Shown here one piece after another: positions 3,252 through 29,395 of a stretch of DNA of 36,323 bases (position 1 is the stretch's first letter; each line of letters begins with the position of its first letter). The stretch lies in contig JADFRC010000004.1 of the NCBI GenBank assembly GCA_022561455.1, positions 1 through 36,323 on the forward strand. Reading direction: 5' to 3'. Below the pieces are notes generated by a model, which was given only the letters and a program-made list of their open reading frames with translations, did no database searches and was not told the DNA's origin. The stretch comes from Chloroflexota bacterium. Its GTDB lineage: Bacteria; Chloroflexota; Dehalococcoidia; Lucifugimonadales; Australimonadaceae. A program made the translations under genes and the position numbers.

Positions 3252-3301
3252 GTAGGGGCGCCATTTATGGCGCCCGAGGGCGCGATGAATCGCGCCCCTA
3301 C
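3252..3301. repeat. 50-bp dumbbell palindromic repeat, copy A
   Basis: GTAGGGGCGCCATTTATGGCGCCCGAGGGCGCGATGAATCGCGCCCCTAC; terminal IR plus two hairpins; 48/50 identical to copy at 11344. Confidence 0.9.
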
Positions 3302-6490: not shown

Positions 6491-6519
6491 GACGGACTTT
6501 CCTTACCGTAGCGCCGGTG

Positions 6520-6650
6520 CCCCACAACCGTTTCGACCATCCCCCCGTCCCCCTTCCTCGCCAGGAAGGGGGCGATGAAGCCAAGGACGGGGGACACCCC
6601 CGTGCCCCCGGCAAAGGGGCCTTACCCCTCTGCACTCCCCGTCTGGAGCA
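6520..6650. repeat. GC-rich structured interspersed repeat, copy 1 (degenerate extension to about 6775)
   Basis: near-identical to 29268-29395; perfect stem CCCCCTTCCT-CGCC-AGGAAGGGGG at 6549-6572. Confidence 0.85.
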
Positions 6651-9514: not shown

Positions 9515-10402
9515 ATGAACCGCTTCGCGTTCTATCCGGGGTGCGTATCCAAGGGATCGTGCCCCGAGCTGTACGAGTCGGTCGAGCAGGTCATGGACCT
9601 GCTCGACATCGAGGTCGAGGAGCTGACGGACGTCGGGTGCAGTGGCGCGGGCGTGCTCACCACCGAGGTCTCGGACCCGATCAACGCGCGCACGCTGGCC
9701 AAGGCGGAGCAGATGGGGCTTGCGCTGATGACGATCTGCAGCACATGCCAGGGCGTCATCGGGGCGGCGGCCCTGCGGCTGCAAGACCCGGAGTACCGCG
9801 CGTTCATCAACAAGGAGTACCTGGCGGCCGAAGGCCTCGAATACAAGGGCACGACGGAGGTGAAGCACTTCCTCTGGGTGCTCGTGGAGGACGTCGGGCT
9901 CGACGAGCTCAAGGCCCTCGTCCGCCGCCCGCTGGAAGGCATGGGATTCTCGCCCTTCTACGGCTGCTACCTGCGGCGGCCGGCGGACGTGGTCGGCCGG
10001 CGGGAGCGCAGGACGTACATCGAGAAGATCACCGAGGTCCTCGGTGGGACGGTCGTGAACATCAGCGGCAAGGGGAAGTGCTGCGGGTTCCCGAGCTTGA
10101 CCATCAACGAGCCCAACGCCTTGGCCATGACGGCCAAGCACACGGGCGAAGCCAAGGACAACGGTGCGGACGCCATGGTGACGCCCTGCCCGCTCTGCCA
10201 CCTGGAGCTGGACGGCGAGCAGACGCAGGCCGCAGCGGCGGCGCGGCGCACCATCGAGATGCCGATCCTCCACCTGCCACAGATGGTGGGGCTCGCGCTC
10301 GGCCTCGACCCCAAGGGGCTTGGCCTGGGACGTCACTTCGTCTCCACCGCCAAGATCGTCGCCCAGCTCGAGCCGGTCGAGGCCGCCGTCAGCGCGACGT
10401 AA
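9515..10402 (+). CDS. CCG-domain protein, HdrB/SdhE-like subunit
   Basis: YPGC..., [38 protein letters not shown]. Confidence 0.9.
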
Positions 10403-10411
10403 GAACGCCGC

Positions 10412-11347
10412 GTGCGGTTCGGTTTCCATACGCGGTCCCACGCTCCCTCGACGGGCAGCGCGGCGGACATCTACCCCGAGCTCCGTGAGCGGGCGCGCGC
10501 AGCCGAGTCGGCTGGGTTCGCCTACTTCTCGGTGAGCGACCACGTCGTCCCGTTCCCGGCCGCCCGAGCGCCGTCGGCGCCGATGCTCGACCCGTGGCTG
10601 GCGCTCGCAGCCGTCGCCACGGCGACCGAGCGCATCGGCCTGCTCACGCTCGTGAGCAACGTCACGCTGCACACGCCCGCGCAGCTAGCAAGCGCGGCCG
10701 CGACGCTCGATGTGATCAGCGGCGGGCGCATGCTGCTGGGCATCGGCTCCGGCGGCTACCGCGCCGAGTACGAGGCGCTCGGGCTCCCCTACCCGGACGC
10801 CGAGGCGCGCGCGGAGATGCTCGATGAGACCGCGGAGGCCGTGCGCCTGCTGTGGGAGCGGCCGACGACGACGTTCGACGGGCGCCACTTCACCCTGCGC
10901 GGCGCGGTGCTCGAGCCGAAGCCGCTGCACCGGCCACGGCTGCTCATCGGCGGCTCGGGCGCGCTGACGCTCAGGCGCGTCACGCGCCACGCCGATCTGG
11001 CGAACTTCGTGCTGCCGGGCCCCGGCCGGCTCGCCGCGCTCATCGAGGCCCTCGAACGCGAGTGCGCGGGCGCCGGGCGGGATCCGGCCGCGATCGAGGT
11101 CTCCGTGCTCGAACAGGCGGTGCTCGCGCCGACAAGCGAGGCGGCTCAGGCGAAGTGGGAGGCGCTGGGCTCGCCGGAGCGCGGGGGGCATCGGGGGCTC
11201 GTGGGATCGGCGGCGGACGTCATCGCACAGCTGCGCGCGTACGAGGCCGCGGGGCTCGCGACCGCGATGGTGTTCTTCCCGGACCGGGACGCGGAGTCGA
11301 TCGATCTGTTCGCGGAGCGGGTCATGCCGGGTTTCCTCAATGGGTAG
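10412..11347 (+). CDS. LLM-class (luciferase-like, probably F420-dependent) oxidoreductase, GTG start
   Basis: FSVSDHVVPFP, ERIGLLTLVSNVTLHTPAQLASAAATLDVISGGRMLLGIGSGG. Confidence 0.9.
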   Translation: MRFGFHTRSHAPSTGSAADIYPELRERARAAESAGFAYFSVSDHVVPFPAARAPSAPMLDPWLALAAVATATERIGLLTLVSNVTLHTPAQLASAAATLDVISGGRMLLGIGSGGYRAEYEALGLPYPDAEARAEMLDETAEAVRLLWERPTTTFDGRHFTLRGAVLEPKPLHRPRLLIGGSGALTLRRVTRHADLANFVLPGPGRLAALIEALERECAGAGRDPAAIEVSVLEQAVLAPTSEAAQAKWEALGSPERGGHRGLVGSAADVIAQLRAYEAAGLATAMVFFPDRDAESIDLFAERVMPGFLNG

Positions 11348-11393
11348 GGGCGCCATTCATGGCGCCCGAGGGCGCGATCAATCGCGCCCCTAC
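11344..11393. repeat. 50-bp dumbbell palindromic repeat, copy B
   Basis: GTAGGGGCGCCATTCATGGCGCCCGAGGGCGCGATCAATCGCGCCCCTAC; 2 mismatches to copy A. Confidence 0.92.
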
Positions 11394-12193
11394 CCGATGC
11401 GGTAGAACTCCTGGGCGGTCCCGGCGAGGAGCCGCTCGCGCTGGGCGCTCGTCATGGGCTCGGCCGCGGCGATCGCGGACTCCATCACCTGCGCGTAGGT
11501 CGCCACGTCGTCGTGGGCCGGCCAGTCCGACCCGAACATCATCCGCTCGTAGCCGAACAGCCGGACGACCTGCTCGACGAAGCCCCGGATGTGCGCGGCG
11601 TTCCACGGGCGCGCGTCCAGGCTCAGGAGGCCCGAAAGCTTCATCACCACGTTCTGGCGGGGTGCCAGGTTCAGCAGGTACACGCCCCAAGGCTCACGCC
11701 GGCCCCAGCCGATGGACGGGCCGCCCAGGTGAGCGACGGCGATGGACAGGCTGGGGAGGCGGCCCGCAAGCTCGCCCACCGACGGCAGGTTGCGGGGCTC
11801 CGCGAGCACGTCCAGCGACAGCCCTCGCTCGGCCACCATCCCGAGCCCCGCCAGCACGTCGTCGCGCACCAGCCAGCGGTTGTCCGCCTCGGCGGACGCC
11901 AGCACGCAGACGCCGCGCAGCTTGGGGCTCTCGCCGAGTGTGTCGAGCCGCCTCGCCAGCGACCGCGCGGTCACGTCGACCCACGGCACGACGGCCGCGA
12001 CGAAGCCGGTCTCGGCGGCAAGCGCCACCGCCCGGCCGGTCTGCTCATCGGACGCGAGGGGCTGGACGAGCACGGTGCTCACGACGCCATGCCAGGCGAG
12101 CAACGGCGCGAGGTCCGCGGGGAGCCGCCGGGCGGGGCTCTCCACGAACTGATGGTGGGCATCGACGATGGGCGCTGGCGGTGGTGTCGTCAC
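11390..12193 (-). CDS. amidohydrolase-family (amidohydrolase 2) metal-dependent hydrolase
   Basis: IVDAHHQFVES; SLSIAVAHLGGP; YERMMFGSDWPA. Confidence 0.9.
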   Translation of the reverse strand: MTTPPPAPIVDAHHQFVESPARRLPADLAPLLAWHGVVSTVLVQPLASDEQTGRAVALAAETGFVAAVVPWVDVTARSLARRLDTLGESPKLRGVCVLASAEADNRWLVRDDVLAGLGMVAERGLSLDVLAEPRNLPSVGELAGRLPSLSIAVAHLGGPSIGWGRREPWGVYLLNLAPRQNVVMKLSGLLSLDARPWNAAHIRGFVEQVVRLFGYERMMFGSDWPAHDDVATYAQVMESAIAAAEPMTSAQRERLLAGTAQEFYRIG

Positions 12194-12292
12194 ACTCGTT
12201 CTTCAAGCGGGGGGTTGCGTAGGGCAGCGGCATTATGCAACGGCCGGTGACGGCGGGCAACGGACGGCGAAAAACACGCAGGAAGGGCCCGT

Positions 12293-12321
12293 TTGCGTCG
12301 ACGATTACGTTCCGGTATCCT
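12293..12321 (+). promoter_or_regulatory. putative sigma70 promoter TTGCGT-N17-TATCCT for the downstream small ORF
   Basis: spacing of 17 nt, upstream of SD-led ORF at 12385. Confidence 0.4.
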
Positions 12322-12384
12322 CGCCGCTCATCCACCGGAAGTTCGGTAGATGGCTCGCTCTGACCGTTGCTCAGGAGGATCTTG

Positions 12385-12672
12385 ATGCCGACGTTCGCAC
12401 TCTTGACGATCCCACAAGCACAGGCGCGAAGTGCAACCGGAAAGCGCGCACAACTGCTTCAGGAATACATGGACTACCTCGGGCGGGTGCCGGCCGGCCA
12501 GGCCGGGCAGCTCCAAGCGGGTCCCGGCGAGACGACCAACGCGGTGCGCCGCCGCCTGGGAGCGGCCGCGAAAGCGACCGGCAAGAAGCTCGTCATGCGC
12601 CGGTCCAACGACACGGTCTTCTTCTGGGTGCAACCGGGCAACGGCAGACGCCGCCGCACACGCGGCTCCTGA
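12385..12672 (+). CDS. small basic protein of unknown function (95 aa)
   Basis: SD AGGAGG 8 nt upstream of ATG; well-formed ORF MPTFALLTIPQAQARSATGKRAQLLQEYMDYLGRVPAG...KKLVMRRSNDTVFFWVQPG. Confidence 0.65.
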   Translation: MPTFALLTIPQAQARSATGKRAQLLQEYMDYLGRVPAGQAGQLQAGPGETTNAVRRRLGAAAKATGKKLVMRRSNDTVFFWVQPGNGRRRRTRGS

Positions 12673-20508: not shown

Positions 20509-20543
20509 GAGCCGCCCCCAGGGCGCACGCCGTGCGCCCCTAC
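20505..20543. repeat. short relative of the GTAGGGGC dumbbell repeat (single hairpin)
   Basis: GTAGG...GGGCGCACGCCGTGCGCCCCTAC; also provides the pgl TAG stop. Confidence 0.55.
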
Positions 20544-29224: not shown

Positions 29225-29267
29225 GAGCTTTCGCGCGGGACCTCGCACGTGAAGAGCGAAGTCGGCT

Positions 29268-29395
29268 CCCCACGACCCTTTCGACCATCCCCCCGTCCCC
29301 CTTCCTCGCCAGGAAGGGGGTGATGAAGCCGGGCACGGGGGACACCCCCGTGCCCCCGGCAGAGGGGCAGAGGCCCCTCTGCACACCCCGCCCTG
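29268..29395. repeat. GC-rich structured interspersed repeat, copy 2 (degenerate extension to about 29440)
   Basis: near-identical to 6520-6650; stems 29297-29320 and CAGAGGGGC-AGAG-GCCCCTCTG at 29360-29381. Confidence 0.85.

Follow-up and report, generated by a model that had tools for sequence, protein, structure and literature searches.

The 50-bp palindromic element at positions 11344-11393 of the window (the whole stretch of 36,323 nucleotides that was analysed) consists of two GTAG-tagged REPs (repetitive extragenic palindromes) joined head to head, that is, a REP heterodimer or minimal BIME, and it is very probably a RAYT-spread repeat whose TAG has replaced the native stop codons of two convergent genes. 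The element is organized as GTAG-hairpin-GA-hairpin-CTAC and reads GTAGGGGCGCCATTCATGGCGCCC-GA-GGGCGCGATCAATCGCGCCCCTAC or, when the tags are set apart, GTAG-GGGCGCCATTCATGGCGCCC-GA-GGGCGCGATCAATCGCGCCC-CTAC. The left unit (11344-11367, plus strand) consists of the GTAG tag and the 20-nt hairpin GGGCGCCATTCATGGCGCCC, the right unit (11370-11393, minus strand) consists of the GTAG tag and the 20-nt hairpin GGGCGCGATTGATCGCGCCC in the minus-strand reading, and both hairpins are separated by the 2-bp spacer GA (11368-11369). On the left side is the gene of an LLM-class (F420-type) oxidoreductase (10412-11347, plus strand; PF00296, E 9.5e-51) and on the right side that of an amidohydrolase (11390-12193, minus strand, the ORF running from 12193 to 11390; PF04909, E 6.9e-32), and their last codons are AAT GGG TAG and ATC GGG TAG, respectively. 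The sequence-only reading had described a repeat which exactly fills the space between the two genes and whose termini supply both stop codons; the coordinates 11344-11393 are correct, and the ORF ends agree with a TAG stop at 11345-11347 (plus strand) within the left GTAG and one at 11390-11392 (minus strand) within the right GTAG.

The genome which carries the window (G000, 2.1 Mb in 196 contigs, 91% complete) contains 20 pairs of the pattern GTAGGGGCG-N5..35-CGCCCCTAC and 124 matches to the tagged hairpin, against 0 for the reversed pattern and 2 for the hairpin control, respectively. Within the window the pair pattern occurs twice (0 in 100 shuffles). The second pair, at 3252-3301, also lies between convergent genes, off both stops, at a distance of 170 bp past one of them and 42 bp short of the 3' terminus of its neighbour, and a single REP of the other subfamily (GTAGGGGCGCACGGCGTGCGCCC) is present at 20521-20543 on the minus strand. 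The hairpins of G000 are of two main types, CGATTCATCG and its relatives, to which most pairs belong, and CACGGCGTG, which is mostly single. The tetramer 5' of the hairpin is GTAG in 100 cases and most of the remaining ones belong to the inner heads of pairs, in a sample that was picked by GTAG-bearing units, and a consensus search 5' of the GTAG gave only a weak upstream preference, which one subfamily showed for AGG or for G at -2. The copies are dispersed and mostly extragenic, since just 1 of the 84 sampled REP sites lies within a gene. The features of GTAG-tagged REPs, namely GTAG directly 5' of a hairpin, dispersed copies, head-to-head dimers with GTAG outside and the provision of TAG stops, were all found in this family. 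In addition, REP units are repeated in tandem, along with about 75 bp of adjoining DNA, downstream of one pair (L014/L139, G000:C128, about 11601-11830), and relatives including G028, G043, G013 and G019 have GTAGGGGCG palindromes of their own with different stems, often perfect over 28-34 bp and in up to 55 copies per genome. The window also holds a dispersed intergenic repeat of 106 bp (6515-6620 and 29263-29368), unrelated to the REPs, the copies of which are 92% identical to each other and resemblances to which are seen in other contigs and in G002:C186.

A gene like those of REP-associated tyrosine transposases (RAYT, TnpA-REP) is present in the same genome at 446-1123 of L084 (G000:C7). 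It was recognised by reading the ORF beside a REP and then with the NCBIfam model REP_Tyr_transpos (NF047646, E 1.9e-16), where its 60 bits are under the curated cut-off of 80; its product includes MPNHIHG. A search of G000 with Y1_Tnp (PF01797) and a PDB sequence search with the RAYT-like protein gave no match. A RAYT gene flanked by the same REPs, which is the arrangement that characterizes a REPtron, was found in G000:C7 and in G001:C84, the score being below the curated cut-off. The gene sits between glyS- and sbcD-like genes, is flanked by a REP at either end and contains a third REP within its frame, and this arrangement together with its REPs is conserved in the congener G001 (G001:C84, L155, about 1095-1782). 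In the congener G002 an unrelated small ORF occupies the same place, and no RAYT was found in the incomplete assembly of that genome though its repeats are many; G001 has the RAYT, and pairs are absent from it. Of 59 related genomes 13 have a RAYT-like hit, and the palindrome is found in 10 of these 13 but in 10 of the other 46 (P 0.0004). From these observations we infer that the RAYT-like enzyme mobilises these REPs. GTAG is required for TnpA-REP cleavage; it is part of the REP and is read by the transposase, which cleaves at an adjacent CT dinucleotide (PMC8266576).

The gene arrangement at the 3'-3' junction of the window is conserved among relatives. In G002 (proteins 90-93% identical) the locus carries a 27-bp single repeat, GTAGGGGCGCGATGAATCGCGCCCTAC, and both stops are unchanged. 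In G001 (proteins 79 and 74% identical) the repeat is absent and 12 bp lie between the stops, the amidohydrolase ending with TGA at the same codon position and the oxidoreductase being two codons longer. The repeat is also absent from the junctions of the family members G010 and G005, which are very short. The repeat at the window locus thus reads as a young insertion, probably acquired before G000 and G002 diverged from their common ancestor, in which it would have taken the place of both stops. Because the stops of G001 fall at the same codon or two codons later, the repeat would have taken over existing stops with no truncation of either gene. At other loci, which were named by sequence resemblance and not by family search, the stop of a repeat-less relative falls at the same codon (sbcD, glyS and rplS) or within a codon (purM), and for two short genes the repeat-less relative stops two to five codons earlier. 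By these comparisons, host proteins are hardly changed by a REP at the gene end. The term stop codon donor, used in the sequence-only reading, is therefore apt as far as the letters of the stop are concerned, which the repeat does supply, but the comparisons with G001 and at sbcD, glyS, rplS and purM indicate that generally no new gene end is made.

The same empty sites bear on a different and rather unlikely explanation, that insertion takes place next to a GTAG already present in the host, with native G-TAG stops as common targets and the stop itself being host sequence; insertion at a GTAG-type target had been suggested from the window as well. GTAG is indeed found at the same stop in the empty sites of sbcD (G001, GAG TAG GG) and glyS (G002, GTG TAG GATG), 7 of the 8 empty sites have a G just before the stop (P 0.002 versus the sampled background), and TAG is the main stop codon (88 of 152 genes). 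However, the complete GTAG is present in just 4 of the 8 empty sites, which is not significant (P 0.07), and it is absent at rplS, purM and the amidohydrolase, where the stops of the relatives are TAA, TGA and TGA, respectively. Moreover, both ends of a pair bear GTAG, so one of them must derive from the element, and biochemically cleavage occurs at CT, GTAG being a guide within the REP (PMC8266576).

The overlap with stop codons was counted in stretches of G000 covering 105 REP units, with gene ends called by a home-made model seeded with known genes. A same-strand gene end lies near the GTAG side of 57 of the 105 units, and in 10 of these 57 the stop falls exactly on the TAG of GTAG; of the others, 12 end 1-30 bp before the TAG, 33 end farther before it and 2 read through. 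The expectation at any single position is about 0.4 (Poisson P about 2e-11), and when the window pair is removed 8 stops are still on the TAG (P 1e-8). Close gene ends are present at the GTAG-less hairpin end too, without a spike. The same count over five related genomes places 6 of 56 gene ends on the TAG, and both cases in G002 are orthologous to sites in G000. A genome-wide count of this sort had been proposed together with the original observation and came out as enrichment, so REP tags do tend to coincide with stop codons across the genome. The termini of GTAG REPs are reported often to supply the TAG stop of flanking ORFs in a survey of these families (Di Nocera, De Gregorio and Rocco 2013, PMC3733652), and therefore the phenomenon as such is already known; the double-stop pair at 11344-11393 is a clean instance of it and the sole case of a stop at both ends among the sampled REP pairs.

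Just 2 of the 12 genes that enter a repeat read through it, against two thirds expected by frame alone (P 0.0005), so the TAG frame is favoured by selection or placement. Preferential insertion at stops could be the source of this frame bias as an alternative to selection. A reading in which insertion is aimed at stop codons (native G-TAG or a near-match), which leaves the gene unharmed, and in which pairs are afterwards inverted, shortened or changed in one hairpin without moving, is held to be quite improbable. Changes in place are observed: the window locus has a pair in G000 and a single repeat in G002, the reverse is seen at G000:C41 and G002:C220, and one hairpin differs between G000:C35:24072 and G002:C149. 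Most of the shrinkage would be explained if about 22 bp had been lost between GGGCGC direct repeats. The REP pair downstream of purM has opposite orientations in G000 (C180:2086-2135) and G002 (C83:2315-2364), as if it had been flipped in place.

It is decidedly unlikely that a randomly placed REP pair simply happens to touch both genes in frame, although no other sampled pair provides two stops, only three sampled pairs lie between convergent genes at all, and the other pair of the window (3252-3301) misses both stops. Such a coincidence is at odds with the single-end overlap, which is far above chance genome-wide even without the window pair, and with G002, which keeps both stops after the repeat shrank. 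Finally, a bidirectional terminator had also been suggested in the sequence-only reading. That the hairpin pair ends both convergent transcripts and was selected for that is very unlikely: the pair does lie between convergent genes, its fold is very stable on both strands (-35 and -39 kcal/mol, z below -6) and 25 of the 84 REP sites sampled have convergent neighbours, compared with 5 convergent cases among the 34 gene pairs of the window, but no T run follows the hairpin on either strand and no hairpin-plus-T-run site is found in 11000-11800, so that an intrinsic bidirectional terminator is unsupported, and in addition most pairs are flanked by codirectional or divergent genes and relatives manage without the repeat. 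A search of 10000-12500 with Rfam covariance models gave no match at the gathering score. In E. coli, a REP located no more than 15 nt from a stop reportedly decreases translation (cited in PMC12306157), and by analogy this could apply to the present pair too.

The replacement of native stops by the TAG of a RAYT-spread REP pair, which we prefer, would proceed as follows. A RAYT/TnpA-REP single-strand transposase, a relative of which G000 encodes with such a repeat on either side, would have spread the repeat, and GTAG would be kept invariant by transposase recognition, not by a role as stop codon, the stop function arising from the TAG contained in it. When a repeat lands at or just inside a gene end in the right frame, its TAG can take the place of the native stop at little cost, and therefore such insertions would survive. 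At the window locus, a native spacer of about 12 bp would have given way to the repeat, together with the two original stops. In RNA the hairpin starts immediately past each stop; a part in protecting the mRNA 3' end or in slowed termination is plausible.

The family resembles several known systems. GTAG REPs have been recorded from Chloroflexi among other phyla, and with the GTAG REP families and their head-to-head dimers as described in PMC3733652 the present repeats share the GTAG tag, the short GC-rich hairpin, the mostly intergenic location, the head-to-head heterodimers with short or longer spacers and the termini that often give TAG stops. As for differences, the hairpin sequence and the lineage of the window were not found in the part of the survey covered here, nor is a dimer whose two ends serve two convergent genes singled out there. 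As in the RAYT/TnpA-REP REPtrons (Nunvar 2010, PMC2817692; PMC8266576), a Y1-like transposase gene is enclosed by two REPs of the kind found elsewhere in the genome; the differences are that the flanking copies here are of the single CACGGCGTG subfamily and not of the paired one, that the transposase frame itself contains a further REP and that the match is below the NCBIfam cut-off. The BIMEs and REPs near stops in E. coli, as summarised in RepRanger (PMC12306157), are likewise inverted REPs 3' of genes, whereas here a minimal pair with a 2-bp spacer and GTAG outside directly abuts the stop. A mobile palindrome which spells the ends of host genes has so far been mainly a remark in a survey, and the present locus turns it into a countable case, with occupied and empty orthologous junctions, in which the gene ends are spelled without truncation. 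Established views are left unchanged by this, and the finding would be of use for the annotation of gene ends and for studies of the spread of REPs in this lineage.
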